Source of the DNA: an uncultured Lewinella sp.
GTDB lineage: Bacteria; Bacteroidota; Bacteroidia; Chitinophagales; Saprospiraceae
Reading direction: 5' to 3'
Length of the DNA stretch: 64,000 nt
NCBI GenBank assembly: GCA_913057785.1
Contig: CAJXPD010000015.1
Location: forward strand, 1-64,000
The notes beneath the pieces are model-generated. The model was not told the DNA's origin. It made no database searches and was given only the letters and a program-made list of their open reading frames with translations. This document shows, one piece after another, positions 18,630 to 55,324 of the stretch; within the stretch, counting starts at the first letter, position 1; the number at the start of each line of letters is the position of its first letter. The position numbers were made by a program, and so were the translations under genes.

Positions 18630-21600
18630 TCAGTTCCTGGCGACGACAAACTTGCGTGTCCGTTTGCCTTCAGGAGTGATTAGGTGCAACAGGTAAATGC
18701 CCGCTGGATAGCGTTCTACGGCAATTCTCTGTTCTAAGGTACCTCTGGCATTCAACAGGCGTTCCATGCCAATTCTTCTTCCTTGTAGATCCGTCACTAC
18801 TAAAGTGACATCCGTAAGTTCTGGCAAACTGAATCTTACCGTCAATTGATCCGCAACAGGGTTCGGGAATAACTGAAGATCAGTTGGTGCCGTTTCTTGA
18901 TCTCTCTCCACTTCTAATGCACCGAATGTACTCACCGCTTTTTTGGCTGTCTTGGTCTCCCTTTCAGGACCTGCAATCAAGCCATTAAGGTCGAAGCAAC
19001 CAGAGATGGCAACATTATCGATGTATACCCGATCGGTATTACCAGAAGCATCGCAACGGAAACGCAACAAGGTATTTTCTGTAAATGGACCTGCAATGGT
19101 GACAGCATCGAAATAGCGAATACCATTTTGGAATTCATCTCCTAGATTCCACTCTTCAACAGTAGTGAAGGAAGCACCTCCATCCAAGGATACTTGCAAC
19201 CAGAAGTCCTCCAGTTCATTATCCAAACTAATCGTCAGGTAAGTGAAATCAACCGTCAACTCAGTGTAAGCGGTCAAATCTAGAGGATCAGTCGTCATGA
19301 CGGAACTAATGGTATTGTCGCGCAAGCGAACAGGGCGCCCCGTGCCGCCGAAGGCAAATGCCGCATCATTCGCACTACGACGACAGTCAATACCACCGTC
19401 ATTCCAAATACCCCATGTGTTATCGAAGTTGTTGAAGTCGATCAGTTGCTGGCTACAGCCGTCACAAACGCCGTCTTCATCCACAAAGCCATCACAATCG
19501 TTGTCTATACCATCACAAATTTCGATTGCGCCATTGTTGACATCTTCATCGAAATCATTGCAATCAATGGTATTGTCAAATCCGTCACCATCCGCATCAT
19601 CGTCACACACATCTCCAATACCATCATTATCTAAGTCTGCTTGGTTTGGATTGGGTGTGTTTGGACAGTTATCTACATCATCGGCAACGCCATCGTCATC
19701 CGCATCATCATCCACGGCGGGGGATACTACAATGACAGTACTAGCTGTATTGCTCGTTGCTCCTTCATTATCCGTGACTACCAAAGTCACTACGTAGGTA
19801 CCTGGATCTGTGAAAGTGAATTGTGTCAATGGACTATTATCTGATCCACCAACCGGACCGAAGTCCCAGGTGTAGATTTCAACCGTACCATCAGGATCAG
19901 AAGAAGCACTAGCATTGAAGTTAACCGTCAGTGGTGCCGTACCAGAGGTTGGTGTAGCAAAGAAGGAGGCTACAGGAGGCTGATTGGTAGAAATGTCGCA
20001 ATCAGGAGCAGTACCACCTACACCATCAGGGAATTGCAACTCAGTGCTTACCATGATCTTATCTAGCAAGGTGCCATCCTCACGGTAGGCAAATTCGATT
20101 GTGTTCGATCCTGCCTGTAGACTAAATGGACTCTGAACTACTTCTCTCCAATCGAATTCGTTTCCAGTAAACAATCCTTGCCACCACTGAATCCAGCCAC
20201 CACCATTCACTCTGACCCAAAAAGAGTCATCGCTATTGCTTGGTGCTTGGATTCTAGCTACGATGTAGAAGTCTCCAGCCTGCTGAAGATCTACTGTGAA
20301 TTTCACAATGTTCGCAGGGTTGTCCGCTGGTGGTGCGAAAAGCGAGTTGAAGCCAGATTGAATAGATACATAGGTATCATTCGAGGCTCCACTGCTTGGA
20401 TCAACAGTAGTATCCCAATTGCTTCCTACTTCTGCACACTCGGCTTCTAACCAAATCGTTACTTCAGTGGTAGTAGCATCTTGGCCATCACAATCTTCAT
20501 CGATATCATTGTCTGGAATATCGAATGCGTCAGGATTGATAGCCGCATTGAAGTCATCACAATCTTCACCTGCGTCGAAGCCATCACCATCGGCATCATC
20601 ATCACAGACGTCACCAATGCCATCGTTATCCAGATCATCTTGATCCGGGTTCGGCGTGTTTATACAGTTGTCATCCGCATCAGGAATTCCATCTTCATCC
20701 GCATCAGGCACAACTACTTCGTCCACAACAATAGTTACCGTGGCTGTATTCAAACTAGCAGCACCATCATTGTCTACTACGGTCAGCGTCACCACATAGG
20801 TACCTGGCTGCGTATAGGTGAAGCTAGAAATTGGATCATCATCCGTATCCGTACTTGGACCAAAGTCCCAGTTATAAGTAACTACAGTACCATCCGCATC
20901 ACTGGAAGTACTCGCGTCGAAGCTGACAGTTAGCGGCGCAGTACCAGATAGTGGATCAGCCGTAAAGGCAGCTACCGGTGGGATATTTGGCGTACAATTT
21001 ACACCTTCGGGTCCGATCGAAGTAGGTATCTCAGGATCTCCACTTAGATAGATCTTATCGAGTAAGGTCCCATCTTCGCGATACGCAAACTCAATGGTGT
21101 TCGCACCTGCCACCAAAGCAAACGGACTGTTCAGTACTTCTCTCCAATCAAATCCACCAAAGGTATTTAGACCTTGCCACCATTGAATCCAGTCACCACC
21201 ATTAACACGTACCCAGAAAGAGTTGTCGTCATTCGATGGCGCTTCAATACGCGCAAATAAGTGGTAGTCACCTACTTGTCCTGCGGACAAATTGACAACA
21301 AACTCAACTTGATTTGCCGGCACATCAGCTGGTGGGACGGGTAGAGAATTGTTTCCGCTCGCTGGCGTTACATATTCTCCATTAGAAGCATCGCCATCCG
21401 TAATTGTAATCCAATTACTTCCTACGATAGCACATTCAGCTTCCAACCAGAAGGTACCCGATCCACTATTCGTAGCATCTTGACCGTCACAGTTTTCATC
21501 AATACTATTATCTGGAATGTCAATAGCATCTGGATTGATAGCGGCATCTAGATCATCGCAATCCTCACCTGCTTCAAATCCATCACCATCTGCATCTGTA

Positions 21601-24600
21601 TCACAAACATCACCAATACCATCGTTATCCAAGTCCGCTTGGTCAGGGTTGGCTGTATCTGGGCAGTTATCCGTATTATCCAACACGTAGCCTGCAAGTT
21701 GACCACAAGAGACTTGGCTAGCATTTGGATCACCAAAACCGTCCTCGTCGGCGTCCGCATAGTAGGTTTGCTCTATGGCAAGCGCGGCATCCAATGGCGC
21801 ACAATCTTCTTCATTGATCGTACCATCGCCATCAATATCAGGATCGCAAACATCACCAATGCCATCAAGATCTAGGTCTTCTTGACCTGGGTTGGCATCA
21901 TTAGGACAGTTGTCATCCGCATCTGGGATTCCATCCTCATCCGCATCTGGAGCATTTTCAGCAGTAATCGTAGCCGTGGCAGTATTAGTGCTAATTGCCC
22001 CATCATTATCTACCACTGTCAAGCTTACCGTGTAAATACCTGGCGTAGTGAAGTCAAAGCTACTTAGTGGGGTATCCTCATTGAAGGAAGCAGATACCGG
22101 TCCAGTAATCACCCACTGGTAAGATACGATAGTACCATCTGCATCGCTTGAAGCAGAAGCATCCAAGCTTACCGATAGCGGTACAATACCACTTAATGGA
22201 TCCGCAGTGAAAGCTGCGATCGGTGCTTCGTTTGGCAAACAGTTCACGCCTTCTGGTCCAGTAGTTGTAGGAGATCCTGCTTCGGCACTCAAGTAAATCT
22301 TATCTAGTAGTGTACCATCTTCGCGATAAGCGAATTCGATCGTATTCTCTCCTTCAGCTAGGCTAAACGGACTATTCAGCACCTCTCTCCATTCAAAACC
22401 TCCATCCGTATCCAATCCTTGCCACCACTGAATCCAACTCCCGCCATTTACGCGTACCCAGAAAGAGTTGTCGTCACCAGTTGGGGCGTTCACTAAACCA
22501 AATAGGTAATAATCTGCTCCCTCTCCAGTACCTAGTTCAAAACTGAACTTCACCTGGTTGGCGGGGACATCAGCTGGCGGACTAGGAAGTGAGTTATTGC
22601 CAGGTACTGGTGTTACGTATTCTCCATTAGAAGCTCCTGCATCCACAACCGTCACCCAGTTTTCACCTACTTCAGCACATTCAGCCTCTAGCCACAAGGT
22701 GACATCTGGTGGTTGAACTGAACAGGCTTCCGGCGCCGTTCCTGCATCTGCGTTGGCAAAAGTACAGGCTATATCTTCCGAGAAGGTAGCCGTTAAACTG
22801 ATGGTAGCTCCGTCTGCTGGCATTTGCACCCCTACAAAAGTGTAAGAAGTTCCAGTCAAATCATTTACATCGACAGAAGCCGTAGCACTACCTGACAGAT
22901 CAAGTGTGCCCGTTGCAGGTATATTTTCGAAAGTCACCGTTACATCTGCTGTGAAGATATCATCAGTTAGATCTGGTGTCTCTAGATCATTACAGGCAGA
23001 AATATTATCTACTGTCAGTGCGCTAATCGCACATACAGGTTCTACAATTTGTAGTCTTACAATATTTGAAACGTCACAGGCTCCTTGTCCGCAGTCATCT
23101 GCTTCAGGAATGATCGTTGCAACGATATAGTATATCTGTTGATCGGAAGTACCCGTAAGATCAATAGCTATCTGGCCTGTTCCTATTCCGTTCAAACTGG
23201 TTGTGAAAGCCGCGATAGATTGCGCCTTGTTCATTTCCAATGGATCAGTGGGTAGACCATTTACTCCAACATCTTCGATCGTTGTTCCGAACACCAATAC
23301 TTCCACATCAGCATTATCAAGACCTGAGATCGATGCTATCTGAGCAGTCTCCGTCACTTGACCATCTGCCGTGATTCCTCCAACTGACAATTCTGGTGCT
23401 GTACAGGTTGGAGTAGCTGGGCTAAAGAAGTTCTCAGCGTTCACCTGGCTATTTCCAACTTGCCACAATTGGCGGGTTGCCGTAGCACCATTCGAGTACG
23501 TTACTGTCACCGTAGCACCAATCAATTCCGATCCTGCAATCGCGCCTGCATTTCCGGCAGAGTTAAACCCTTCAATACTGCGAGGATCAACATCCACCGC
23601 CACATTCACTGTCTCCCCTGGCTCGAATTCCGTGAAGTCCAAGGTCATAGTATTGTATCCTCCCGGTCCATTTGGATCAGAGAATGGATCTACACAGTCT
23701 GGATCGGTTCCTGTACCGTTGTTACCAGGTATGGTCAATCCAACATTTCCATTACCGCCAGTCTGTGAAACCAAAGTCACACATTGTGCCGTGGCATCAC
23801 CCGCTGTCCCTACTGGATCAAACACCATGTTCGGGAATACTGCTGTGCTAAGATCAATGGAAACAGAGGTGATATTAACCGCTCCACTAGAATTATTGCT
23901 TATAAATAGTCCCCCACCAAAAGTACTAGAACCTGCCAATCCGCCGCCGGTATCAAAGGCTACCCGAGCACACGGATCCACAGAGCAACCTGCAGGTGCT
24001 GGACCCGCATCTTCATTGGTGAAAATACAAGCTGTATCGTCACTGAAAGCTGCCGTCAAGCTGATCGCCGATCCATCAGCAGCCATCACCACGCCTTCAA
24101 AAGTATAAGACAGTTGATCAACTAGTTCGCTAACATCAACTGATCCTGTACCATCACCAGACAAGTCTAGCGTTCCAATGGTAGGAATGTTCTCAAAGCT
24201 CACGGTAATATCAGCGGTAAAGAAGTCATCTTCAAACTCAGGTGAGCCAGCATCGTCACAAAGAGAAACATTAGAAACCGAAATATCCGTAACCGTACAA
24301 ACCAGTTCAATGATCTGTAGACGTACTACATTCGAAATATCACAGGCACTTTGACCGCAGTTGTCCGCCACTGGTAGGACGGTAGCTACGATGTAGTATA
24401 TCTGCTGATCCGATGTCCCAGTAAGATCAAGGTTTACATCAGCCGTACCATTGACATCCAATGTCGTAGTGATAGATTGGATAGATTGTGCTTTGTTCAT
24501 CTCCAAAGGATCAGAAGGCGCATTTCCAGCTACGTCTTCAAGCGTAGTACCATAAACTAGTATTTCAACTTCGGCATTTGCTGGGCCAGTAATGGTCGCA

Positions 24601-27600: not shown

Positions 27601-30323
27601 CCTCCACCAAAATCAAATCGCAAGCGTTGTAGGCCAGTACTTGTAAAAATAACAGTGGTGGTATAGTCAGAGAAATTAGTCCATCCGTTATTTTGGATAC
27701 CTAAAGTTCCAATCGATGAAAATCCACCTCCTGATTCCTCTGAAACCGTTAAAGTTGCTGGATTGCCGCCAGCGTTATTACCTTTCGAGGCATTAACTCT
27801 TAGGTCATAGGCACCTGGAGCAGGTACATCAATAAGATATTCCGCAAACTCACCTGAGTCAATCCAACCAATATTACCTGCCGGTTCAATAGCAAATTGC
27901 CCGCCGGGTGGATTACCTCCGTAAAAAGGAGTAACCGGGGTGGAGAAAGTTCTAGCCAAGATTACATCAATAATATCTTGGGCAACGTTAATTTGGAACA
28001 CCTCCTGCGCTACGGGATTAATCCCATCATCAGCCGTTACACGAGCTTCGTAAGACTTACCATCAGTGTTAGCAGTTGGCCAATCCAGAATATAGTTACC
28101 AGAATTAGCAGGGCTCTCTGTAAAGGTATATGCAGAAGCAGGTACGGTGGCTGCTGGAGTAAACGGATTATTCGTTCCTCCAGGGGCACTCTTATCATAA
28201 ATAACGATTCCCACAGTATTGGGAGCATCGCCACCACTTACCGTTATAGGTATATTGAGCGTAGTTCCTTCATCTATCTCTTGATCATCAACGGCGGTAA
28301 TAAGAGGTGCCGTACTAACTGAAAATTCAAAGTAGTCGATATTGAATTGGAAAGCAGTAGCACCTACCCAATCAAAACGTAAAGTCTGAGGACCAGCGGG
28401 CAGCGCGACTGTCACGCTTTGGATCTGATAAGAGCCAAAACCTCCGGTAGAGGTCGGGGTGAATGTAGTCAAGAGATTTCCATTAGAGGAAATTTCCATG
28501 CCTTTGTTCGCTCCACCAGGGACCCCCACAAACAGATCTAATTTGTAGTTCCCGGCCGTTTCAACATCTATTTCATATTCTGCAAAATCACCCGCATTGG
28601 TGAATCCAATATTGGTAAAACCAGCATCGATTTCTACCCCTATACCGTTATTATCACTGGTATTTCCAGGTGAGGTGTTATCTGGGCCTTGCTCATCAAA
28701 AGATTCTGCCTCAATCCTAGTAGTTCCGATCTCAGTTACTACTTGATCCACATCGTTAACAGTTAAGTCTAAGGTTTCGGTGATGGTGTTACCATCTTCG
28801 TCTGATACCTCTACTGTAATTGTATAGACGGCATTCCCATCGCCATTGGATCCACCGTCACCGAAGGTGGGGGTGAAATCTAGGCTTGAGCTATAGGAAC
28901 CGGCAGCCGATGAAATAGAAGACTCAGTTAAAAATCCACCAGCCGTGGTTGGGAATGGATCTACTTGCTTACCACTATTGGCAGATTGTAGATCTTCAGG
29001 TTCATTTGAGATAGAAGTGATGGTAACTGTGAGATTGTCCCCATCAGCATCTGCTACACTAAGTGGTACGCTAACAATTCCACCTTCATTTACACTTGCG
29101 GTGGGGTCAATGGTAATCACTGGTGCCGTATTGCCTTGTGTCACCGTGAAGTTCACAATCGCTTTGGCTCCTACACAAGTAAATTCCGTATGGTTGGCGG
29201 CCGCAGCTACTACTACGATAGTATTAGCACCAAGCTGGATTCCATTGCCGTTCCCATCAAAGGCCAAGCTTCCACTATTCTCATCGAAGGTAAAGCTTGT
29301 TTGAGATCCATTACTGGCCGTAGAGATTCGTTTTGCCTGATCCAGGTTATTCACATCTGGAGGGTTGATGAAGAAGTGCATGTGCTCATTTGGCGCTTGT
29401 TCCGTACCAAATAGAAGATCCGTAACATTGACTTCCACATCGACCGTAGTTCCTTCTATGCTTCCCCCCTCTGTGGGAGCAACAAAGGTGATCGTAGGAC
29501 AGGATACATTAACAGTAATTTCGTCAGTCCCCGGTAAACCTCCAGCATCCGTCACCGAAGCCGTAATCGTCTGAGGGCCTGGCTCTAGCAACTGATCCGC
29601 AATAGAAGTACCTAGTTGACTTCCGGAAAAAGCCACATCACTAGAAGACCAAGCCAGATCATCTCCTAGATTGGGTTCTTGGCCATCTACTACGGTAGCC
29701 GTCAAATTGAAGTTTTGCCCACGGGTAATATCGGCCCCATCGGTAGGCGCCGTAATAGTAACTACCGGTGCCGTATTATCACTGCCTATCGTGACAGACA
29801 GTGGCGTGGTACCCGCCAAGATATTAGGGCCATCTAAGGATACTTTAGAAGGTAAAGTGCCATCAAAATCTACCGTAGTGGTAGTTCCTACCCCAATCAC
29901 CTCAAACTCAATGGTCAAGAAATCAAAGCCAGCAGGTACGTCTGTTGAAAACAAGACTGCTGCATAATCTATTGTACCCAAGGTGTTGTCAAAGGTTGGG
30001 GCCACGATGGGGGTTGGCAAGGACGAACCTGCCGTAAGGCCAGCAGCTTTAACCTGCAACACAGTTGGATCAAAGGTGAGATGAATTTCTGCTGCATCCA
30101 CCAAACCAGTTCCATTTACTTGAACCACGGTCGTAAACTCTGTACTAATAGTCGGGTCTACTGTAACATTTGCGGGATTAAACTCCAGCGTGGGCTGTGC
30201 CCAGGCTGACACCGCAAAAGCGAAAAATAAAGCCAGTACACTTAGGTACCGTTTCAGGTCACCTTCGCTTTGCGGAGGTGCGCCTGGGTGGCTTTTGATT
30301 TTTGATATAAATGCTAAGTGCAT
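18630..30323 (-). CDS. 3897-aa cohesin-domain surface protein with CBM6, malectin, PKD, TSP3 repeats and T9SS sorting domain
   Basis: Giant surface carbohydrate-binding scaffold. In order: signal peptide (about 1-43), cohesin-like domain (46-180; IHLTFDPTVLQV...IDYAAVLFSTDV...LTIEFEV), Ig/cadherin-like domains, CBM6-like domain (about 528-670, starting IEAESFDEQG), a second CBM6-like domain (about 784-916), an Ig domain and a malectin-like domain (about 1021-1175). Then follow five copies of an 'NISACND' module, two copies of an STFGG-type module, three WLEAEC carbohydrate-binding-like modules each followed by PKD and thrombospondin-type-3/MopE calcium repeats, a MAM-like domain (about 3620-3770), and a T9SS type A domain (LQLFPNPVADQLTVRF ... 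ending RKFVVARN). The T9SS tail implies surface anchoring. It follows the dockerin-bearing gene by 53 bases and is probably in the same operon. No catalytic domain is seen. Confidence 0.9.
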   Translation of the reverse strand: MHLAFISKIKSHPGAPPQSEGDLKRYLSVLALFFAFAVSAWAQPTLEFNPANVTVDPTISTEFTTVVQVNGTGLVDAAEIHLTFDPTVLQVKAAGLTAGSSLPTPIVAPTFDNTLGTIDYAAVLFSTDVPAGFDFLTIEFEVIGVGTTTTVDFDGTLPSKVSLDGPNILAGTTPLSVTIGSDNTAPVVTITAPTDGADITRGQNFNLTATVVDGQEPNLGDDLAWSSSDVAFSGSQLGTSIADQLLEPGPQTITASVTDAGGLPGTDEITVNVSCPTITFVAPTEGGSIEGTTVDVEVNVTDLLFGTEQAPNEHMHFFINPPDVNNLDQAKRISTASNGSQTSFTFDENSGSLAFDGNGNGIQLGANTIVVVAAAANHTEFTCVGAKAIVNFTVTQGNTAPVITIDPTASVNEGGIVSVPLSVADADGDNLTVTITSISNEPEDLQSANSGKQVDPFPTTAGGFLTESSISSAAGSYSSSLDFTPTFGDGGSNGDGNAVYTITVEVSDEDGNTITETLDLTVNDVDQVVTEIGTTRIEAESFDEQGPDNTSPGNTSDNNGIGVEIDAGFTNIGFTNAGDFAEYEIDVETAGNYKLDLFVGVPGGANKGMEISSNGNLLTTFTPTSTGGFGSYQIQSVTVALPAGPQTLRFDWVGATAFQFNIDYFEFSVSTAPLITAVDDQEIDEGTTLNIPITVSGGDAPNTVGIVIYDKSAPGGTNNPFTPAATVPASAYTFTESPANSGNYILDWPTANTDGKSYEARVTADDGINPVAQEVFQINVAQDIIDVILARTFSTPVTPFYGGNPPGGQFAIEPAGNIGWIDSGEFAEYLIDVPAPGAYDLRVNASKGNNAGGNPATLTVSEESGGGFSSIGTLGIQNNGWTNFSDYTTTVIFTSTGLQRLRFDFGGGMNINEFEFTQTTSTLPPVFTSNIPDQFSLEGDSPTGPTAAAFDPDGGAVTYSDNGTLPPGLSIDPNTGVISGTISVGASNGSPYAVVITATDDEPESNTEAFSWTVEVAADLPLCVNCGNAPNPITAFGRTFSPEQYLVGSANNFNNLAAAISGTFPGSGEEQVYQSEKFATLLQYAVPTGNGDFTVELYLTELYIGSPGGGSGLGAGDRLFDIDVEGVTENGIDLFVEYGPLVAATKTFNVTVTDGILNIDIDASVDNGKLNGFCITPTADFVANTAPTVDILAQEDVIDCEGDGEDITLTASAADAEQEGDFTTLIVWKDASNAQVGTGGTLDLIGFTGTATFTAEVTDATPATTVESITVNVLENTPPSLSPIVANPTVITVGGGVSLSTTATDDEEDDNSLVVIWSSDLETANNGELGTGLTLNPILTVEGTHTITASVTDACGIETTETVQVVVEPPVPCAITAIQVDNISACNDNGTDANLEDDTFTADITVTFNESAPTTGNLVLGEEATGSIPVGDITGNSYTFTGVTMTADGTTIIVSAAFSDEPTCELTNINAGTAPEACSVVPCQLIDIVVLATGPCNDKGTPEDPSDDTFFQSLTVTLNNAPAFGTLEVTGSASFTLDLSLLSAPLTNIQFNIEVPADGAPISYTASIIGIPGCSVTNDDLGNAPEPCSVAPCSISAIEVNNISACNDQTTSDAGDDTFTADVTVTFASAPAAGTLDLTGDGTASVDVSTLVGTTHTFVGVEMSADGGPISLTATFSDDLACTFANEDAGTAPADCSVDPCSRVAFETGGGLAGSSTFGGGLFITNNSIGAVNISSVSIDLSTAVFPNMVFDPVGTAGDATAQCVTLVAQTGGNSNVGLTIPGNNGTGTDPDCVAPFSDPNGPGGYNVMTLDFTEFEPGETVNIAVDVDPRSIEGFNSAGNAGAELIGATVTVNYSNGATSTRQLWQVGNSQVNSENFFNGTAEACAAPTLEVGGVTGDAQVTETAQTATITGPANAEVEILVYGTTLEDVAGNAPSDPLEMNKAQSIQSITTTLDVNGTADVNLDLTGTSDQQIYYIVATVLPVADNCGQSACDISNVVRLQIIELVCTVTDISVSNVSLCDDAGSPEFEDDFFTADITVSFENIPTIGTLDLSGDGTGSVDVSELVDQLSYTFEGVVMAADGSAISLTAAFSDDTACIFTNEDAGPAPAGCSVDPCARVAFDTGGGLAGSSTFGGGLFISNNSSGAVNITSVSIDLSTAVFPNMVFDPVGTAGDATAQCVTLVSQTGGNGNVGLTIPGNNGTGTDPDCVDPFSDPNGPGGYNTMTLDFTEFEPGETVNVAVDVDPRSIEGFNSAGNAGAIAGSELIGATVTVTYSNGATATRQLWQVGNSQVNAENFFSPATPTCTAPELSVGGITADGQVTETAQIASISGLDNADVEVLVFGTTIEDVGVNGLPTDPLEMNKAQSIAAFTTSLNGIGTGQIAIDLTGTSDQQIYYIVATIIPEADDCGQGACDVSNIVRLQIVEPVCAISALTVDNISACNDLETPDLTDDIFTADVTVTFENIPATGTLDLSGSATASVDVNDLTGTSYTFVGVQMPADGATISLTATFSEDIACTFANADAGTAPEACSVQPPDVTLWLEAECAEVGENWVTVVDAGASNGEYVTPVPGNNSLPSPPADVPANQVKFSFELGTGEGADYYLFGLVNAPTGDDNSFWVRVNGGSWIQWWQGLDTDGGFEWREVLNSPFSLAEGENTIEFAYREDGTLLDKIYLSAEAGSPTTTGPEGVNCLPNEAPIAAFTADPLSGIVPLSVSLDASASSDADGTIVSYQWVITGPVSASFNEDTPLSSFDFTTPGIYTVSLTVVDNDGAISTNTATATITAENAPDADEDGIPDADDNCPNDANPGQEDLDLDGIGDVCDPDIDGDGTINEEDCAPLDAALAIEQTYYADADEDGFGDPNASQVSCGQLAGYVLDNTDNCPDTANPDQADLDNDGIGDVCDTDADGDGFEAGEDCDDLDAAINPDAIDIPDNSIDENCDGQDATNSGSGTFWLEAECAIVGSNWITITDGDASNGEYVTPASGNNSLPVPPADVPANQVEFVVNLSAGQVGDYHLFARIEAPSNDDNSFWVRVNGGDWIQWWQGLNTFGGFDWREVLNSPFALVAGANTIEFAYREDGTLLDKIYLSGDPEIPTSIGPEGVNCTPNIPPVAAFTADPLSGTAPLTVSFDASTSSDADGTVVTYNWDFGPSTDTDDDPISSFTYTQPGTYVVTLTVVDNDGAASLNTATVTIVVDEVVVPDADEDGIPDADDNCINTPNPDQDDLDNDGIGDVCDDDADGDGFDAGEDCDDFNAAINPDAFDIPDNDIDEDCDGQDATTTEVTIWLEAECAEVGSNWDTTVDPSSGASNDTYVSIQSGFNSLFAPPADNPANIVKFTVDLQQAGDFYIVARIQAPSNSDDSFWVRVNGGGWIQWWQGLFTGNEFDWREVVQSPFSLQAGSNTIEFAYREDGTLLDKIMVSTELQFPDGVGGTAPDCDISTNQPPVASFFATPTSGTAPLTVNFNASASSDPDGTVEIYTWDFGPVGGSDNSPLTQFTFTDPGTYVVTLVVTDNEGATSNTASTVIVVSPAVDDDADDDGVADDVDNCPNTPNPNQADLDNDGIGDVCDDDADGDGFDNTIDCNDFDEDVNNGAIEICDGIDNDCDGFVDEDGVCDGCSQQLIDFNNFDNTWGIWNDGGIDCRRSANDAAFAFGGTGRPVRLRDNTISSVMTTDPLDLTAYTELTVDFTYLTISLDNELEDFWLQVSLDGGASFTTVEEWNLGDEFQNGIRYFDAVTIAGPFTENTLLRFRCDASGNTDRVYIDNVAISGCFDLNGLIAGPERETKTAKKAVSTFGALEVERDQETAPTDLQLFPNPVADQLTVRFSLPELTDVTLVVTDLQGRRIGMERLLNARGTLEQRIAVERYPAGIYLLHLITPEGKRTRKFVVARN
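20000..22700 (-). repeat. Three WLEAEC - PKD - TSP3/MopE repeat units
   Basis: Three copies of a ~150-residue module beginning WLEAECA.VG.NW and containing FWVRVNGG.WIQWWQG start near 22700, 21455 and 20460. Each is followed by a PKD domain and by calcium-type repeats (DNDGIGDVCDDDADGDGFD). The aromatic-rich WIQWWQG segment and the 'EFAYREDGTLLDKI' ending are typical of beta-sandwich sugar-binding domains. Boundaries are approximate. Confidence 0.75.
23034..25547 (-). repeat. Two tandem ~1.26-kb repeat units inside the giant cohesin gene
   Basis: Units 25547-24300 (1248 bases) and 24299-23034 (1266 bases) encode the same order of modules: an 'NISACND' module, the STFGG module and a companion beta-domain ending NVVRLQI/NIVRLQI. 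The STFGG parts are nearly identical in protein (for example DLSTAVFPNMVFDPVGTAGD in both) and visibly similar in DNA, so the duplication looks recent relative to the rest of the gene. Confidence 0.8.
29784..30188 (-). other. Cohesin-like domain at the N-terminus of the 3897-aa protein
   Basis: Residues 46-180 fit the cohesin pattern: an initial strand set (VTVDPTISTEFTTVVQVNG), a hallmark IHLTFDPTVLQV, then an IDYAAVLFSTDV strand, LTIEFEVIG and a final PLSVTIG strand. It is the first mature domain after the signal peptide. The match is by eye against the cohesin family pattern, so it could also be a related noncellulosomal cohesin. Confidence 0.7.
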
Positions 30324-30376
30324 AATTATATTTTTAAAAGAATAGGCTATTTAAAAAGAGTGTTCCAGCGTCAGCA

Positions 30377-33300
30377 CTACGGCTGTTCTGTCGGTTCTTC
30401 TCCGTTCACATTGAAGTTGCCTCCTGCTACGGAGAAGTCCTCTAATCCCACTTGGCCATCGCCATTGAAATCAGCATAGTTTGGAGCGCCACCGGGATTC
30501 ACGTTTGAAGTGTTGAAGACACCACCAAGGATGGAGAAATCCTCCAGAAGCACTTTATTGTCCCCATCCACATCACCTGCCAGTAGCTCAGCGATCGTCG
30601 CTGAATTAGCTCCTTCTGTCAAGGTGATTACCTGCACGCGCTGCAAGAACCCAGCACGCTTCACTGCCACTTGGTAAGTTCCAGGAGTGATATCAGGAAT
30701 GGTCATGCTACCAGCAGCATCTGCAGTCGGTGTATAGGAAGCCACAGGGGTCTGGGCATCTGTCAAGCTGAACAAATTCACCGTGTAATCTCCACTGTAG
30801 TCTGGATTACCTGTCCCTAGATCTCTACCTTGGTTGGTGACAGTAAGTGTCAAGTCTGCACCTGCGCCTGCACAAGTAGGATCTAACTTCAGGATTAGGA
30901 TATTGGAAGTTTGACTTACTTGTTGATCTACGGCATAAGGGCCATCAGACAATACTGCGACGATGTGGTTCAATCCACCGTTGGTAGTACCTCCAGGTCC
31001 TGGTGTTTCAAGCAGGGTAACTGGAATTTCTACCGTTCCATCATTTCCAATAACAGCGGTATATAAGGTCTTACCACTCATCGCCTCATTAGCATAGAAG
31101 GTCTCATCAGGAACATTGAAAGGTGGGTTGCCGGACTGGATAAACAAGCGAGAATCCATCAACAATAAGGATACATTGGCACCAGCGGGACCGCTAACTT
31201 CGATCGTCTGATTGGCAGACTCAACACAAGTAATATCATCTTGTCCTACCGCCGTAATACTTGGTGTAGCAGGTGCGTTCTCAGCCACAATAGCTTGGCC
31301 ACCACCTAAACTACCGTCTTCATAGATATTAGAAACCAAAGTACTGCCATCGCTAAACGTGATCGTTACTGTAGCACCGATCAACTCATATCCAGAAACG
31401 GATCCAGCCCCACCTGCCCCGGGCACACCTTGAATGCTATTAGGATCGACATCTACTGTGTGGAACAAGGCCTCATTTGGATCAAAATCCGTGAAGCTGA
31501 TACTCATCACATCAAAACCGCCATTGCGCGGGGCACTGAATGGACTCGAACAAGGATCAGCTGGAGCGATCAAGCCAGTGGCCGTGGCACCACTATTCGC
31601 CGTAAAACAACTCGCCGTAGCATCTCCTCCAGCACCGACGGGATCAAATACCATATCTGGCAAGATTCCAGTGCTCAGATCGAGCGTGAAGCTGGTGATT
31701 TGTAGATTGCCCGTAGAAGTGTTCGTCAACTGGATACTGCTTCCACCAAAGGTGCTTGCACCTAGCGCTCCGTCAGGAGTAATCTCAACCAAAGCCGATG
31801 GGCTTCCAGTTGGTGGGGTTTCAGAAACTACCCATGTGAAGTTGGCACTTGCAAAAGCGGGTGGATCACACGCATCTGCAACCGTTACCGTAACATTATA
31901 TGGACTGCCATCCGCAGCACCTGCTGTACCACCAACTGCCTGTTCAGATTCTGGTCCGTTCAAGGTATTGGTAGGAACGCCAGTCGCCACATCATCTATG
32001 TGGATTAGGGCAAAACGATCTACCTTGTGCCCAGCTGAGCGCTCAGACATATTGATCGTGTAATTACCAGCAGTGGGGAAGTATGCATAGATAGGAAAAC
32101 CGTTATTGTCAATTGTTTTAGAATCCCATTTATTTCCATCAGTCCCACTTCTAAATACTTTGAAATAACCTTTATTGCCAGGATTCTCATTTCCATGGTC
32201 AGGACGGTTTTCCGCATTTCCTGCTGGATAATAGTAGGTTTGACTAGTGCTATTAGGATCCGCGATTTCATTGAGAAAAGCCTGAGTACTACTCACTGTA
32301 CCACCTTGTGAACAGAAGAAATGTACGTCCGTGGTGTTATCAATCTTGAACCAACTGTCATTCTCTTCTGAACCAACGGTACCTGTGATATCACTCTTCA
32401 TGTGGAAGCGATAAACTCCTGGAGTATTGATCTCAATATCGTAGGTTAGTACCTCACCACCGGTGGCATTACCAAAATTATTACCGGTAGCTAGCAAGAA
32501 ATCCACACCTGAATCTGCGAAAGGTTCCCAACCACCTGAAGTATTCACAAAGTCCGTTTCTGCCTCAATAATTAGTACTCCTCCATCTTCAATAAAGGCT
32601 CCTGCCACACCAGATCCAGATCCTGCATCTAAAGTTCCGGTAATCAGTCCGGTATTTTCATCAATACTTAAACTAGGCGGAAGGCCTGTAGCCGAATAGG
32701 TCAAGCCATCGCAAGGATCCGTGTCTGTAGCAGCAATCTGTAAGGAAACAGCACTTCCTTCTACGCCAGATTGCGTTCCTGGATTAATGACCACCGGAGG
32801 ATCGTTATCAGAAGCGGCAACAGTAGAGACCTGAATCCCCTTAATCGCTGGATTTTCTACGCCGTGAATCAGCTCTATATCAATCGTACCATCTGAAGTA
32901 GTGGTAAAGGTTCGAACGAAGGCTCCTTTTGGTCCAGCTACCGCATATGGATCTATATCATCAAATACAGGAGGTATAACCCCGTCAATAGAAATATCAA
33001 AAACGCGTTGTCCAGCTCCCGTGATGTCTTGAAATAGTTCAGCGAACAAAATCGCAATTTCTACTTCTGTACCTTGTGGAACCGGGAATTGCCACAACAT
33101 CTCTGGGGCGCCAGGACCATCCCAACGTTCCGTATTGAATACTTCCGTAGGAATCTCTGGAAAGGCAGCTAAGGATGGATCGGTCGTGATGATCGGTCCT
33201 GGATGAGCGCTGGCACTATTTCCACTGAAGGTACCGCCCGTAGCTGTTGCTGCAATGAGATAAGGCGAATTTCCTGCAGCTCCGAAAGCTCCAGTATCCG

Positions 33301-36300
33301 CACTCCAAACCGGAGAAGATGCATCCGCTGCAGAAAGTTGCGCACCACCTGCATTAACGCGGAATAACGCCTGGGTTTGAGAAGGCGCAAGCACGGTCCA
33401 AGTAAAGCTTGTGCTGACTAAATCATTCGTTTCACCATCACTATCATCCACCGATACAGTGACATTGTATATACCGTCATTATTAGGACCTCCTGCGGAT
33501 GCTCCAACATCTATAGTACCAATGATGTCTCCGTTGGTTGGTTCTACACTTAAGCCTGTAGGTAAGCCACTTGCGGAATAAAGTAAATTGCCATCTCCAC
33601 CAGTCGCCACAATATCAAATGGAGACGGTACCCCCTCCACACTGATTTGATCACTAATCTGACTAAGGTTGATCGGAATATCTCCGGTTGACCCAAAGCC
33701 TAGTACTTCGATAGCTGAGATCTTACCATTGTTCGCGGATGCAGGGAATGAGATACTCAAGGAACCATCACTTACGGTGATATTACCAAACGTCTTGATC
33801 GTTGCAGCTGCGGCTCCGACCTCAGCAAAAATGTCAAAGTTCAAGAGCTTATTTTCGCCTTCAATCACGATATCAAAGACTCGGGAACCCACTCCGCCAC
33901 CACCTGACAAGCCGAAGAACAACTCTGCAAAGTGTAGATTCACTTGGTACGGGCCAGTTCCGGCTACCGGGATTTCGTATTGCAGATTCGCATTGTATCG
34001 CTCCGTTTGGTACAGATCGTCGTCATCCGTATTAGCTATCGCTGCTGTAGATGAAAAGGTCTGACCATTAACAAAGAAATTATCAGCAGCCCATTCTTTA
34101 CCGGCTCCGTCCGTGTAGGCTGGACCACCGGCGTTAACCCGAATTTCTTCAGCGGGTGCTGCGTCAGGGTCGTATTCTACAATGATAATATTTGATAAGT
34201 CACTGGTAGCTCCATCATCATCGACTATTACTGCGGCAAAAATGTTGTAACCCGCTTCATCATCTGAATCTGTTAAGGTCACATTGAAATCCGCGGTGAA
34301 AGAATTACTGATGGTACTAGTTAGCTTAGTGACACCAATCACGCTATTCACTTCCCAGGGATCAATATCATATCCATCTGGGGCATTCGGGCCATTTAAT
34401 CCATCAAGGAATAAGCCCGCCTCCAGTTGTAGTAGGAGTACCTCTCCACTTACGGGACCAGTAACCGTCACCGTATGGTTTGGTGTCACCACCACGGACT
34501 GGCTAGTCACATTATCAATAGAAATAGTAGGTGCATCTGGGAGTGCATTTCGTGCCACGTTCTTGGAATCTCCCTCGCTATCATTTTCGCCACTCATCAA
34601 TTCCACTTCCCATTCTTCACCGGTGTCAAAAGTAACAATGACTTTAGCACCACTAATTTCCAAACCGGACACACTACCGGATTCATTTGGTCCTGGAGAA
34701 CTACCACCTTTTATACTGACCGGATCAATATCCAATCCGAATTCGATGGTCTCTCCACTGGCAAAGTCATTGAAATTTACCTCTAAGGAGTAAAACCCTC
34801 CTTCGTAGGACTTGCCAAAATTGTGGCTTGTATAGCCAGTACCACCATCTGAACCACCATTAAGCGTTAGGTCCTTGGAGGTTGCATCTCCCGCCGTTCC
34901 ATTGGGATCAAAGACAACCTCTGGGATAATCGCAGTAGACAGGTCAATGATAACCTTTGTTATCTGCGAGCCCGTGGATAGGTTTTCTATGAAAAAAGAT
35001 GAATTGCCAAATGTACTTCCATTGATCCCACCGGTATTAACCTCGATCTTCGCTTGTGCATCCGATGGATTCTGGGTCACTTCGAAGTAATCCCAGCTAG
35101 CGGAGAATTCCGGAGCTGGCCCAGTAGAAGTAGCAATCGGGCCAGCAGCTAGTGCCGAGGCTTGCCCATTAATGGTATAAGTACCTTGGATGGCATCCAA
35201 TAAATCTCCGGTAACAGTTACTGGGGTTCCGATATCCGTTCGGGTACCTCCATCAGCAGCATAACTTGCCTGCACTTCACCAGTGGTGGGGTCTACGCTG
35301 ATATAAATAATGATCGTAGAGGCATTTAATATACCAGCCACGTTAACCAACTGTGAGGTGGTAGAGCCGTTATTCTCTAATAATACCTGAAAGGCGGAAG
35401 ATCCACCGTTATTTCTAACGGTCACCTTCAAATAATTCTGCTGATCCCCAGTACCGATAAAGATTCCGTGGGAGGCAAAATTTTGTGGTGATTGATTATC
35501 GAAGAAAGGGCCATTGATTTGCCCTAGCACGGTGAAGGGGCCAGTGCTTGTGCTCACATTTACCGGAAACTGAAAGGCATTCTTTTGGGAGTTTCCTCCT
35601 TCGAAAGCATCACCAGCAGCCACCGATGGATCGGTATATATACCCGCTGTTCCCCCGAATACCAATTCATCTCCACTATCATCGATCAGGCCGAAGTAAT
35701 CTTGAGAACCATTGGTCATGATGCCCGTGAAACCGAGGCTACCAAAGCCATATCCGGTGGAGTTGAAGAGGTCTAAGCGTACTGGAAGATCTCCTAGACC
35801 GCCTTTACCATTAGTTGCGTCAAAACAGAAGGCATCATCCACATCTGGGATACCGTCTTGATCGTCATCCGCATCATTTAAATCTGATCGCTTGAAACCG
35901 TTAAATTCAACTACATCGTCAAAGTCAGCGGGCTTACTCGCCCCTGAGCAAGGATTGGTTCCGTTATCGATTTCATCCGCATTGGTATATCCATCATTGT
36001 CCTCATCTATCGTATCGTCGTCATTGCCTAAGCACTGACCAGGATCATTACCGTCGTAATCAGAAGGTTCAAAAATGGTAATGTTATCTGCCCCGTAGGT
36101 TACTGCCCATACGGTACCTCCGAATGCATCATCATCTCCCTGAGCAATCACATCAAGCGGATTACTTCCAAAACCAGATGCGAAAGAATCACTACAGTTA
36201 TTGGCCGGATTGGAAGGACAATTCGTTGCTACCGTTCCATCCGCATTCAAAAATACCTGATAGATGTTTCCGTTGAAGGCTGCCAATAGAAGCGTCCCCT

Positions 36301-37723
36301 TTAAGGCGTTATTAAAGTTACTAGCCGTGTATTCTGCGATACCGTTGGTGGAAGGGCCGTAATTAGCCATGGCATTGTCATCCACACCGGATTGCTGAAA
36401 ATCACATTCTATAGGATTAGCTGCCGTTACGGGTGGCCAACTTGCTGGCAGATTGTTATTCCCAGGAGCATAAAATGTACCATTGTAATACAAACCAGCG
36501 CCGTCCGGATTACCTCGGATTGGCGTTGGGTGCCCGGCATAATAATCCTTGAAAAACAGGTGCAGGCCGTTTTTATTGTTGACCTGTGGATCCGGGTTTC
36601 CATTACTTGCCACGGTCCCGTTCTGTCCGTCCAATAAGGTAATATTGTTCGGGTAAGTGGAGGGGTCTGGCCCTTGGCCTGTGGAACCCGGTTCACCATT
36701 TATGTAGTTGTTAGTGGCATCATATGATTCTTCATATTCCGGGAAACCTCCCCAGCCTCCATTGGCACCATTATCCACACCGTACATTCTGCCAGATTCT
36801 GTAAGTACGAGGTCATATAGGTTTCGCCAACCGGGTGAAAAGATTTGCACGGGGCCATTCGGATCCAGCATGGCTTGGTTTAAACCATCATCTCCCCCCC
36901 AAGGATCCGGGTGATCATTACCATTGGCCAATAGATCAGCTTTACTCACATTCTGGAGCGTAGGCAAATTGTACTTAAAAGCTGCTCCATCTCCATCGGT
37001 TTGGGTCGGTAAGGCCTCAATCACATCCAAATCTGCCTCTAGTACCGCCGCAGATAAGGCGTATTCTGTTGTAAAAGCAAAGTTGTTGGAAGGTGCACCA
37101 GCATTAGTATGTCCACCTTGGGCAATGTAAAGGATGTTGTTTTGCTCATCCAACTGCATTCCGTTAGTGGCGTGGTTCTCTTCCGACCTTGGTAAACCTC
37201 TAATTAGGTCAACTTTGGTCCAGCCGGTGCATTGGCCAGAGCCATCAATACCACCAGTACAGGTAAGCTTAGAAACGACACCGGAATTGGTATCCAAACC
37301 TGTGTCATTTCCTCCTCCACCGGCTCCAATCCGAGGATCACTAGAACTTACGTAGAGGATCGGATTGGCACCCGTGCCAGTTATTAATATCCCAGTAACC
37401 TGCCGGTTACTATTTCCAGAATTCGATCCATCATCATTGTGATTTTGGATGTTCTTCACCAGGTTGATTGTTTCTGTACTGGTGACTTCATAATCATTCG
37501 GGCCATTTCTTTGGATCGTGTAAGCGTATATGGTTCCATTCTGTTGGGAAACATATAAACGACCGTCAGGCCCGAACTGTAGAGAGGTCGGGTTGTTTGA
37601 GGACTCCCCTACCAATCCACTCGATGTAAAGTTCACTTGTCCAATCACTGACAAGGAACTCAACAGCCACGCTATAAGCAGTATGGCTTTTTGAGGTTGA
37701 AAGTTTTGTAGGAAATAGGTCAT
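30377..37723 (-). CDS. 2448-aa beta-propeller / malectin protein with C-terminal dockerin-like domain
   Basis: Secreted multi-domain protein. In order: signal peptide (about 1-29), a propeller of the sorbosone/glucose-dehydrogenase type (30-555; LQFGPDGRLYVSQQNGTIYA, SPGWRNLYDLVLTESG), calcium-type repeats (about 588-625), LamG-like domain (about 620-870), STFGG module (about 891-1068), companion domain, malectin-like domain (about 1189-1342), Ig-like domain, second malectin-like domain (about 1449-1632), an Ig-like domain split by a sugar-binding insertion, a second STFGG module (about 1974-2153), a beta-domain resembling the X-module before dockerins, and two EF-hand-type loops (DVDGDNKVLLED, DFNGDGQVGLED; about 2379-2440). 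There is no T9SS tail. The propeller may bind or oxidise sugars, but PQQ residues could not be checked. The cohesin-bearing gene follows after 53 bases. Confidence 0.88.
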   Translation of the reverse strand: MTYFLQNFQPQKAILLIAWLLSSLSVIGQVNFTSSGLVGESSNNPTSLQFGPDGRLYVSQQNGTIYAYTIQRNGPNDYEVTSTETINLVKNIQNHNDDGSNSGNSNRQVTGILITGTGANPILYVSSSDPRIGAGGGGNDTGLDTNSGVVSKLTCTGGIDGSGQCTGWTKVDLIRGLPRSEENHATNGMQLDEQNNILYIAQGGHTNAGAPSNNFAFTTEYALSAAVLEADLDVIEALPTQTDGDGAAFKYNLPTLQNVSKADLLANGNDHPDPWGGDDGLNQAMLDPNGPVQIFSPGWRNLYDLVLTESGRMYGVDNGANGGWGGFPEYEESYDATNNYINGEPGSTGQGPDPSTYPNNITLLDGQNGTVASNGNPDPQVNNKNGLHLFFKDYYAGHPTPIRGNPDGAGLYYNGTFYAPGNNNLPASWPPVTAANPIECDFQQSGVDDNAMANYGPSTNGIAEYTASNFNNALKGTLLLAAFNGNIYQVFLNADGTVATNCPSNPANNCSDSFASGFGSNPLDVIAQGDDDAFGGTVWAVTYGADNITIFEPSDYDGNDPGQCLGNDDDTIDEDNDGYTNADEIDNGTNPCSGASKPADFDDVVEFNGFKRSDLNDADDDQDGIPDVDDAFCFDATNGKGGLGDLPVRLDLFNSTGYGFGSLGFTGIMTNGSQDYFGLIDDSGDELVFGGTAGIYTDPSVAAGDAFEGGNSQKNAFQFPVNVSTSTGPFTVLGQINGPFFDNQSPQNFASHGIFIGTGDQQNYLKVTVRNNGGSSAFQVLLENNGSTTSQLVNVAGILNASTIIIYISVDPTTGEVQASYAADGGTRTDIGTPVTVTGDLLDAIQGTYTINGQASALAAGPIATSTGPAPEFSASWDYFEVTQNPSDAQAKIEVNTGGINGSTFGNSSFFIENLSTGSQITKVIIDLSTAIIPEVVFDPNGTAGDATSKDLTLNGGSDGGTGYTSHNFGKSYEGGFYSLEVNFNDFASGETIEFGLDIDPVSIKGGSSPGPNESGSVSGLEISGAKVIVTFDTGEEWEVELMSGENDSEGDSKNVARNALPDAPTISIDNVTSQSVVVTPNHTVTVTGPVSGEVLLLQLEAGLFLDGLNGPNAPDGYDIDPWEVNSVIGVTKLTSTISNSFTADFNVTLTDSDDEAGYNIFAAVIVDDDGATSDLSNIIIVEYDPDAAPAEEIRVNAGGPAYTDGAGKEWAADNFFVNGQTFSSTAAIANTDDDDLYQTERYNANLQYEIPVAGTGPYQVNLHFAELFFGLSGGGGVGSRVFDIVIEGENKLLNFDIFAEVGAAAATIKTFGNITVSDGSLSISFPASANNGKISAIEVLGFGSTGDIPINLSQISDQISVEGVPSPFDIVATGGDGNLLYSASGLPTGLSVEPTNGDIIGTIDVGASAGGPNNDGIYNVTVSVDDSDGETNDLVSTSFTWTVLAPSQTQALFRVNAGGAQLSAADASSPVWSADTGAFGAAGNSPYLIAATATGGTFSGNSASAHPGPIITTDPSLAAFPEIPTEVFNTERWDGPGAPEMLWQFPVPQGTEVEIAILFAELFQDITGAGQRVFDISIDGVIPPVFDDIDPYAVAGPKGAFVRTFTTTSDGTIDIELIHGVENPAIKGIQVSTVAASDNDPPVVINPGTQSGVEGSAVSLQIAATDTDPCDGLTYSATGLPPSLSIDENTGLITGTLDAGSGSGVAGAFIEDGGVLIIEAETDFVNTSGGWEPFADSGVDFLLATGNNFGNATGGEVLTYDIEINTPGVYRFHMKSDITGTVGSEENDSWFKIDNTTDVHFFCSQGGTVSSTQAFLNEIADPNSTSQTYYYPAGNAENRPDHGNENPGNKGYFKVFRSGTDGNKWDSKTIDNNGFPIYAYFPTAGNYTINMSERSAGHKVDRFALIHIDDVATGVPTNTLNGPESEQAVGGTAGAADGSPYNVTVTVADACDPPAFASANFTWVVSETPPTGSPSALVEITPDGALGASTFGGSSIQLTNTSTGNLQITSFTLDLSTGILPDMVFDPVGAGGDATASCFTANSGATATGLIAPADPCSSPFSAPRNGGFDVMSISFTDFDPNEALFHTVDVDPNSIQGVPGAGGAGSVSGYELIGATVTITFSDGSTLVSNIYEDGSLGGGQAIVAENAPATPSITAVGQDDITCVESANQTIEVSGPAGANVSLLLMDSRLFIQSGNPPFNVPDETFYANEAMSGKTLYTAVIGNDGTVEIPVTLLETPGPGGTTNGGLNHIVAVLSDGPYAVDQQVSQTSNILILKLDPTCAGAGADLTLTVTNQGRDLGTGNPDYSGDYTVNLFSLTDAQTPVASYTPTADAAGSMTIPDITPGTYQVAVKRAGFLQRVQVITLTEGANSATIAELLAGDVDGDNKVLLEDFSILGGVFNTSNVNPGGAPNYADFNGDGQVGLEDFSVAGGNFNVNGEEPTEQP
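30400..30588 (-). other. Dockerin-like domain (two EF-hand-type calcium repeats)
   Basis: The C-terminus of the 2448-aa protein holds two ~22-residue repeats, DVDGDNKVLLEDFSILGGVF and DFNGDGQVGLEDFSVAGGNF, spaced by about 20 residues. The ligand positions 1, 3, 5 and 12 of each loop are D-D-D-D and D-N-D-D, as in type I dockerins. In both repeats the helix after the loop has the same pattern (LEDFS..GG.FN), giving the twofold symmetry expected of dockerins. Confidence 0.75.
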
Positions 37724-38990: not shown

Positions 38991-39869
38991 TTATTTTCTA
39001 AAAGGTGCGGGATGCAGTTTACTTGGTTTAAGTGGAGCTGGCATCCATTCCCCATCAGAAAGTACTGAGATCTGCTCATAACCTGATTCTAATAGTAAGG
39101 AAGTCCCGAACTCAAAGCCTTTGGTGATATTTTCGGGATGATGAGCGTCAGAAGCTAGATGAACTGGAATCCCCATCTGCTTAGATTGGATCAGTATCCG
39201 CCGTCCAGGATAAGGTTCCGCCGTTTCGTTTTTGTAGTAACCTTTTGTATTTACCTCCATAATGGAACCGACTTCCGCAATGGAAACTAGCGTTTTATCT
39301 ATCGCTTCTAGATACCATGGAGATGATTCCGAGAAGAATCGCTCCCCTCTATTCCATTTCTTGATACGATCCAGATGTGCCACAATGGTAGGTCGAAAGT
39401 CTTCGACCATCTCCCTAATCAAAGCATAATATCGCTCCACTGCAGCCTGGATACTACCATTAAAGATTTCAGTCACTCCTCGTTCAAAACACTCTACTGA
39501 CTCCTCAAACCCCCAGGGAGTCCCATCTGCAAATGCATCGACGAAGTGCACCGCTCCGATCACATAATCTAGCTCTGATTCTAGGATATGTGGACTATCC
39601 ATTGCAATTACTCCTGGGATATAGTCTACCTCCAGACTTTTGTAGACTTGAATATCCTCTTCATACATCTGCTTCAGGGTATCTATTTCGGCCAAATATC
39701 GTTCGAGCTCCTCCAAGCTCATCAGCCCCACAGCGGATCCAGGGACTGGAGCATGATCAGAAAAACCATAGGTCTTTAATCCTTGGGCTATGGCCTCTTG
39801 TAAATATTCTCTAGGACTTAGTCTTCCATCGCTGAAGTGCGAGTGGGCATGGTGATTAGCTAATTGCAT
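38991..39869 (-). CDS. PHP-domain histidinol-phosphatase-like phosphoesterase
   Basis: Metal-dependent phosphatase of the PHP superfamily, HisJ/HisK-like, cytosolic. The N-terminal metal motif is HAHSHFSDG (H9, H11, D14) and later metal sites include GFSDHAP, TIVAHLDR and HLASDAHHPE. Length (292 aa) is normal. Family members hydrolyse histidinol phosphate, but others act on sugar phosphates or nucleotides. No other his gene is present, and this is the last gene in the sugar locus (144 bases after the GH26-like gene), so a sugar-phosphate role is also possible. Confidence 0.85.
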   Translation of the reverse strand: MQLANHHAHSHFSDGRLSPREYLQEAIAQGLKTYGFSDHAPVPGSAVGLMSLEELERYLAEIDTLKQMYEEDIQVYKSLEVDYIPGVIAMDSPHILESELDYVIGAVHFVDAFADGTPWGFEESVECFERGVTEIFNGSIQAAVERYYALIREMVEDFRPTIVAHLDRIKKWNRGERFFSESSPWYLEAIDKTLVSIAEVGSIMEVNTKGYYKNETAEPYPGRRILIQSKQMGIPVHLASDAHHPENITKGFEFGTSLLLESGYEQISVLSDGEWMPAPLKPSKLHPAPFRK

Positions 39870-40013
39870 GACACAATATAAGCCTACGATGTAAATTCTA
39901 GATTAATCCGAGGTTGTCCCAAAATAAAATTTCAGGGAGATTGCTGATCGTGAAAAGGTATAGTCGCAAACTTCCTGACGGGCACGATAAACTAAGTGCA
40001 ATCTTAATTCAAG

Positions 40014-41144: not shown

Positions 41145-41255
41145 GTTTTTCTTATTTGGTTCTCCGATGCTTCTGGGCACTGCGCTCACCATTACCATTG
41201 ATATAGCACAGCTCGGACAAGCTGTCCTAGCCACAAAGTCTATCTGAGAGGTATT

Positions 41256-44386: not shown

Positions 44387-44475
44387 CTTGTGTTTACTGT
44401 TTCATACATATTATTGAAAAACTCCCCTACTCCTCTCGGCAGGGAATCTCTCAAATATAGGTAATCTAGAGCGCT

Positions 44476-54998: not shown

Positions 54999-55324
54999 TG
55001 TTGAAAAGAATTTGATTGTTGTAAATCCTCTGCAGCGGGCATAGATATCCAACCCAAAGCGAGGGATTGCTTTAGTAGTGAGCATAAGGATCAATCGAAA
55101 TTATCCTTAAGTAGGGAGACAATAACTGCCAGCCTACTTGCTAGAAATCCTTGTGAAAAGTGGGTTTGTGTTTATTCCTGGCTAAGACCGAAAGCAATGA
55201 GCATTTGACATTTCCTTCTGATCCACGCCCTGGTTTAATGATTTAATTTAGTAGGTCCAAGAAAGACCCAATCTCGGCGTTTCATGGTCTGATCAGATCC
55301 GTATTATGTTACAATTCTAGTTTG
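54999..55324. other. Spacer upstream of susC, probable promoter region
   Basis: About 330 bases between the susC start and the hairpin after xylA. No gene is seen. TTACTTTG on the minus strand (55323-55330) differs by one base from the -7 box, but no -33 element was found. A promoter here would let susC be transcribed separately from xylA. Confidence 0.4.

Follow-up and report, generated by a model that had tools for sequence, protein, structure and literature searches.

Outside the cellulosomes of anaerobic Gram-positive bacteria, hardly any cohesin-dockerin joints are known, apart from scattered cases that lack a known partner. The closest described systems are the type II cellulosomal pairs, in which the X-dockerin of CipA is matched with SdbA and that of ScaA with ScaB (PDB 2b59, 3kcp, 4u3s and 4wi0). 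Positions 10, 11, 17, 18 and 22 have been described as dockerin recognition positions, and similar repeats have been read as dual-mode binding (PMC6780208); type II dockerins have recognition residues at positions 10 and 17, Phe at position 20 and Asn or Gly at position 21 (PMC5590126). Non-cellulosomal cohesins include that of Archaeoglobus fulgidus (2xdh) and the modules borne by GH33 and GH84 glycosidases of Clostridium perfringens (2vo8, 2jh2 and 2w1n). A genomic survey of cellulosome bacteria makes no mention of Bacteroidota (PMC11557425). In a Posidonia banquette metagenome, cohesin genes in MAG.096 were taken as a sign of a cellulosome and of cellulose degradation (PMC8547425). MAG.096 (L048 in genome G002 of our set) belongs to the genus studied here, and that report describes neither the gene pair nor the partner logic presented below. 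No description of such a pair was found in the literature searched.

We describe two adjacent genes of a Saprospiraceae genome whose giant products, P0002 and P0001, very likely form a two-protein surface assembly through a cohesin-dockerin joint. The proposal rests on domain identity, folds, exclusive pairing, adjacency, homologous fusions and covariation; binding, calcium, surface location and glycan function are inferred, without binding data or a model of the complex. Like the type II cellulosomal pairs, this pair has a C-terminal X-dockerin dyad, a cohesin on the anchoring protein and recognition positions 10/11/17/18, and an adaptor-and-anchor chain is found in Lewinella relatives (Doc, Coh..Doc, Coh..T9SS). 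Unlike them, it occurs in a Gram-negative host with T9SS rather than S-layer anchoring, its cargo has no recognised glycosidase, sequence identity is only about 12-24%, and the genome has one dedicated cohesin and one dockerin. With the non-cellulosomal cohesins it shares a cohesin fold outside cellulosomes that joins large carbohydrate-active or carbohydrate-binding proteins; those have no link to T9SS, whereas here the dockerin stands where homologues have their sorting tail. P0001, like most P0002 homologues, is one of the T9SS type A surface proteins known from Bacteroidota (TIGR04183, PF18962), whereas P0002 and 21 others are tail-less and have an X-dockerin and a neighbouring cohesin gene instead. 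A cellulosome reading was rejected, as there is no glycosidase on the dockerin protein, only one matching cohesin and no multi-enzyme scaffold.

The window is a 64,000-nucleotide stretch (positions 1 to 64,000 of contig CAJXPD010000015.1) from a metagenome-assembled genome (MAG) of an uncultured Lewinella sp., which comprises 11.36 Mb in 548 contigs and is 7.9% contaminated. The pair was found again in G001, an independent MAG of the same genus; the same-genus relatives used here are Saprospiraceae MAGs. Both genes lie on the minus strand and are read in the order P0002 (30377..37723, 2448 aa) to P0001 (18630..30323, 3897 aa), across a 53-base gap (30324..30376) without a called terminator. 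Promoter-like and terminator-like sites in the window were not in excess over shuffled sequence and are thus uninformative as to an operon, and Rfam gave zero matches in the window. P0002 consists of a signal peptide, a propeller-like domain, two malectin domains, He_PIG, an X-module and a dockerin, with no T9SS tail. P0001 consists of a signal peptide, an N-terminal cohesin, CBM6, malectin, PKD, TSP3 and MopE modules and a T9SS type A tail.

Upstream of P0002 on the same strand lies a polysaccharide utilisation locus (38991..55094, minus strand) with SusC, SusD, GH16, GH26-like, GH43, sugar transporter and PHP genes, and its last genes adjoin the P0002 orthologue in two same-genus genomes. 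The 1.27 kb between the locus and P0002 (37724-38990) has no long ORF and no Rfam match, and is of similar size in the relative G001. A link to one polysaccharide locus as a general rule was rejected, as the pairs of Arenibacter and Robiginitalea sit among housekeeping-looking genes. These neighbourhoods were judged from ORF sequence and not by family searches; no obvious polysaccharide locus was evident beside the pair, and the substrate may therefore differ. In G001 the P0002 orthologue (L038:7656-9701) is broken across several frames, through either an assembly error or gene decay, while the frames of its X-dockerin end and of the cohesin gene are both open. Another giant protein, encoded at 1139-8518 of the window (minus strand), is 2459 aa long and contains PPC and CHU_C-type Ig domains.

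The N-terminal domain of P0001 (residues 43-180; 29784..30197, minus strand) is a true cohesin with the jelly-roll cohesin fold; that it binds a dockerin is inferred, in the absence of binding data. The full-length hmmscan of P0001 missed the domain, and the match came from the segment scan, where residues 43-180 scored 26.6 bits against PF00963 (cut-off 24.1, E 7.6e-6); the six-frame genome search gave 26.3 bits. A sequence search of the PDB returned cohesins only weakly (E 0.016-0.03), and a comparison of folds was run because these values are insufficient alone. The AF2 model, built from an alignment of homologous loci, has a mean pLDDT of 92.9. Its best match by VIA was 4uyq_A (Z 16.2, 131 residues, 2.3 A), and the first 48 rows were all cohesins or cohesin-like modules.

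The C-terminus of P0002 is a type II X-module/dockerin dyad in which the X-module is packed on the dockerin, the fold being known from a model. The X-module, a transthyretin-like beta domain (30581..30865, minus strand), was assigned by sequence and fold matches. It precedes the dockerin as aligned by Pfam (30434..30580, minus strand), whose two F-hand repeats begin with DVDGDNKVLLEDFS and DFNGDGQVGLEDFS; the second repeat extends beyond the Pfam alignment to the end of the X-dockerin segment. Against PF00404 (cut-off 22.9) the last 162 aa scored 24.9 bits in the segment scan and the dockerin 27.4 bits in the genome search, with the full-length scan falling slightly below the cut-off at 21.7 bits. 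Sequence search with the tail returned cellulosomal X-dockerins first (4wi0_B, E 3.8e-12). The AF2 model of the X-dockerin (mean pLDDT 89.2, again from homologous loci) matched the eight entries for cellulosomal type II X-dockerins, and nothing else, at Z 14.4-15.5 with 142-146 residues aligned, the next row being at Z 8.0, and it is on this match that the beta domain is called an X-module. Calcium-ligand positions 1, 3, 5 and 12 of the two repeats are D, D/N, D and D, with L and G at position 9 against the usual Asn/Asp. The repeats are symmetric at the recognition positions, with L-E at 10 and 11 and G-G at 17 and 18 in both, and F20 and N21 are present in each.

P0001 ends in a type A sorting domain (18642..18872, minus strand; TIGR04183, 45-46 bits, with 46.3 bits in the scan of P0001), which makes it a T9SS type A substrate. 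The NCBIfam matches of P0002 include no sorting domain of type A, B or C; having no match to TIGR04183 or PF18962, P0002 is not a type A substrate. The translocon is represented in the genome by sprA (2386 bits), and type A sorting tails number at least 150. Domain scans found no glycosidase domain in P0001 or P0002. The N-terminal propeller-like domain of P0002 (36059..37639, minus strand) belongs to a family widespread in Bacteroidota. It has no solved relative by sequence and gave only a weak hint of PF07995 GSDH (16.1 bits, cut-off 25); its function is unknown, and enzyme activity is therefore not excluded. A propeller paralogue of 3557 aa in the same genome (G000:C3, L043:4285-14955, minus strand) is T9SS-tailed and has no X-dockerin.

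An earlier note, made from the sequence alone, had given the sizes of the two reading frames, the stretch that they span and the 53 bases between them, and these held. So did its two EF-hand-type dockerin repeats at the end of P0002 (by the PF00404 segment score and the fold), the X-module-like beta domain before them (by the 4wi0_B match and a Z of about 15), the cohesin-like domain at the start of mature P0001 (by PF00963 above its cut-off and the AF2 fold), and a T9SS tail on the cohesin protein with none on the dockerin protein (by TIGR04183 and the NCBIfam scan). Its view that there is no obvious glycosidase, and so a binding complex rather than a cellulosome, held as far as domains tell, with the reservation that the propeller could be catalytic.

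An X-dockerin profile (A4) and a cohesin profile (A5) were built from this family, and counts for the whole window genome were obtained by profile searches of its contigs. This genome contains exactly one A5-type cohesin and one A4-type X-dockerin, as neighbours; its 19 cohesin and 15 dockerin matches by Pfam are nearly all of other subfamilies. Among 398 Saprospiraceae genomes, A4 was found in 13 and A5 in the identical 13 (Fisher p = 1.2e-24), and the matches share contigs in all 13. A phylum sample of 395 genomes yielded A4 matches in 8, strong in just three, which indicates that the system is rare and patchy. Several genomes in the comparison are MAGs.

Adjacency was scored in all clusters read from Saprospiraceae and five Flavobacteriia genomes. 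Every X-dockerin-terminated protein without a T9SS tail (22/22, in 17 genomes) adjoins a cohesin gene; Maribacter stanieri and Maribacter HyVt-319 could not be judged, both genes being at contig ends. No cohesin was found in the flanks, some of them short, of complete T9SS-tailed propeller homologues without an X-dockerin (0/33). Three of the 20 control genomes with T9SS-tailed propellers had a strong A5 cohesin, and in all three it adjoins a second, X-dockerin-tailed propeller protein, so that the prediction held. A cohesin-T9SS gene also adjoins an X-dockerin gene in Flavobacteriia (Robiginitalea, Maribacter and Arenibacter). The cohesin gene comes first in most Flavobacteriia pairs and second in the window genus and Lewinella; in R. 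myxolifaciens the pair is reversed, both of its genes being minus-strand, and here too the cohesin gene comes first. Each cluster that was read to its end has a single T9SS-tailed gene, the exceptions being those of G632 and Portibacter with two or more.

The two repeats of a dockerin agree with each other at positions 10, 11, 17 and 18 more often than expected (0.69 vs 0.28, p 5e-5, n=26), and the positions at which repeats most agree within proteins yet differ between them are 10, 17, 11, 21 and 18. A first set of 15 dockerins had 10, 17, 11 and 18 as its top four covarying positions. Positions 10 and 11 had been spotted by eye before testing; 17 and 18 emerged from the test. The other variable positions also showed a small excess of agreement (p 0.004), and the shuffles leave sequence relatedness in place, which inflates permutation tests. 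Cohesin and X-dockerin distances were correlated (r 0.67, Mantel p 0.0004; subsets 0.50-0.78, p at most 0.034), with r 0.74 for the dockerin alone and 0.48 for the X-module alone. No significant correlation was found between the cohesin and the propeller, which lies on the dockerin's own chain (r 0.10, p 0.31; range 0.10-0.33). This mirror-tree comparison rested on 10 sequences that are related to one another, and for two of these the pairing was made only across contig ends; when the cross-contig pairs and Lewinella are left out, r drops to 0.53 (p 0.03).

Relatives provide versions of the assembly in one, two and three chains. Three genes are found in each of G009 and Lewinella sp. IMCC34191: protein 1 runs from propeller/malectin to X-dockerin, protein 2 from cohesin through malectin or CBM6-like modules to X-dockerin, and protein 3 is again cohesin-bearing. 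In G009 protein 3 has two cohesins and a T9SS tail, whereas in IMCC34191 the stretch read stops inside this third gene. By BLASTP, residues 24-2430 of P0001 correspond to protein 2 of G009 up to its X-dockerin, and residues 2532-3893 to the part of G009 protein 3 that follows its cohesins and includes the T9SS tail. The intervening fusion region (residues about 2430-2532; 22728..23036, minus strand) is where the relative has an X-dockerin and a cohesin. Proteins 2 and 3 of the Lewinella type are fused in the window species exactly at the cohesin/dockerin joint, with a peptide bond in its place. Neolewinella maritima has one T9SS-tailed chain of 2687 aa that corresponds to proteins 1, 2 and 3 in order, with 75% identity to protein 1 over 1904 aa, and no A5 cohesin was found in its genome. 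From these natural fusions we infer that an X-dockerin with a cohesin may do the same joining work as a peptide bond, the two being interchangeable within a single assembly. Other genera have this joint on different cargo, with DUF4082 and DMFA2_C domains in G025 and SprB repeats in genus g8.

In the mechanism that we propose, P0001 would be exported via T9SS by means of its C-terminal tail, and would then be held at the cell surface with its N-terminal cohesin outward. P0002 would bind this cohesin through its X-module/dockerin dyad in the manner of type II cellulosomal X-dockerins. Docking is inferred to be most likely calcium-dependent and, since the recognition residues are identical in the two repeats, may be possible in two orientations. 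The non-covalent joint would take the place of a peptide bond or, on surface proteins, of the covalent T9SS tail. Together with the propeller, the malectin and CBM6-like modules would form a glycan-binding surface complex; this function is inferred as the most likely one because both proteins have malectin and P0001 also has CBM6, PKD, TSP3 and MopE-like repeats. The earlier note had read the T9SS-tailed cohesin protein as recruiting the tail-less dockerin protein. This is supported by the perfect co-occurrence and co-divergence of the pair, by homologues in which the modules are fused or split, and by the covariation of the repeats at recognition positions, while binding, calcium dependence and the export route remain inferred. 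Its suggested check for co-occurrence in related genomes was run, and the pair co-occurs far beyond chance; of the outcomes that it said would refute the idea, the one that could be tested, a lack of significant profile matches, did not occur, and the models bear out both folds.

How the tail-less protein crosses the outer membrane was a question that the same note had raised; export in trans is our answer, proposed with confidence that is evenly balanced, and not shown. In the preferred route, unproven and as likely as not, P0002 would dock to P0001 in the periplasm and both would leave through the SprA translocon. A bolder reading, held as a single joint claim that could equally prove right or wrong, is that the complex would pass SprA already folded, its tail-less member exported in trans under a single sorting tail, and that the cohesin-dockerin joint would thereby give unrelated proteins (propeller/malectin, SprB-repeat and DUF4082 proteins) an exchangeable, 'outsourced' substitute for a T9SS tail. 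It is also possible that P0002 is exported independently by an unknown signal, or released by lysis or in vesicles.

Among rival explanations, the one that survives best, although unlikely, is that P0002 is not surface-bound at all, the assembly being periplasmic or released in vesicles and the joint serving retention there. P0002 does have a signal peptide and no recognised outer-membrane export signal, but its glycan-binding modules and T9SS-tailed partner point outside, and the one-chain homologue has the same modules plus a T9SS tail. Very unlikely is the view that the X-dockerin tail acts on its own as a T9SS sorting signal of a non-canonical kind, a further CTD type, with the neighbouring cohesin a carrier, a processing factor or unrelated. 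In its favour, the X-dockerin occupies the exact place of the T9SS tails in homologues, and several CTD types (A, B and C) exist (PMC10202324). Against it, T9SS tails number 150 or more per genome whereas an X-dockerin of the P0002 type occurs once; the X-dockerin is restricted to genomes with a matching cohesin; its repeats covary at cohesin-recognition positions; and its fold is that of cellulosomal X-dockerins. Moreover, Portibacter and one other relative have X-dockerin, cohesin and T9SS tail on one chain, so in these chains the X-dockerin is no substitute for the tail. Within a type, dockerins of cellulosomes can bind promiscuously, and Pfam finds 19 cohesin and 15 dockerin matches in the window genome, which leaves about 18 further cohesins, but that P0002 docks on these or on partners of other cells while the adjacent cohesin binds something else is very unlikely, given that the sole cohesin of the matching subfamily sits next door and that co-occurrence, adjacency and co-divergence of the pair are perfect or concordant.

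The preferred reading, a dedicated cohesin-dockerin joint between P0002 and P0001, describes an inherited pair in T9SS-bearing Bacteroidota (Saprospiraceae and Flavobacteriia) with natural one-, two- and three-chain versions. It gives partners to 'orphan' cohesins and dockerins of these bacteria, and such modules need not mean a cellulosome. It also makes testable the T9SS export of a partner protein without a sorting tail ('hitch-hiking').

Related modules were observed in other arrangements. Three further proteins of the window genome (L009:6124-10164, L013:8190-11150 and L016:12122-15955) each have a dockerin, a cohesin and a T9SS tail on one chain and could self-associate. Single chains with X-dockerin, cohesin and T9SS tail in the same order are found in Portibacter lacus (L141) and in G632 (L157 and L158). 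On contig C219 of the window genome (G000), an 1893-aa protein (L009:12808-18486, minus strand) has a C-terminal tail of the gliding type and five cohesins that belong to another subfamily; it adjoins a 271-aa protein (L009:18482-19294, minus strand) with a single cohesin and a T9SS tail, and the two may constitute a separate multi-cohesin scaffold. In bacterium RI_153 (L146-L149) cohesin and X-dockerin share single chains, one of them a propeller protein with the order Coh-XDoc-Coh; at the C-terminus several of these proteins have IYLPMVER-like tails and not T9SS tails, which suggests transfer between lineages. Finally, in G006 (L040 and L045) at least four large proteins without a T9SS tail have an EF-hand-like pair and, after it, a conserved terminal GVSSRVPK, possibly a second dockerin-like docking or sorting tail.
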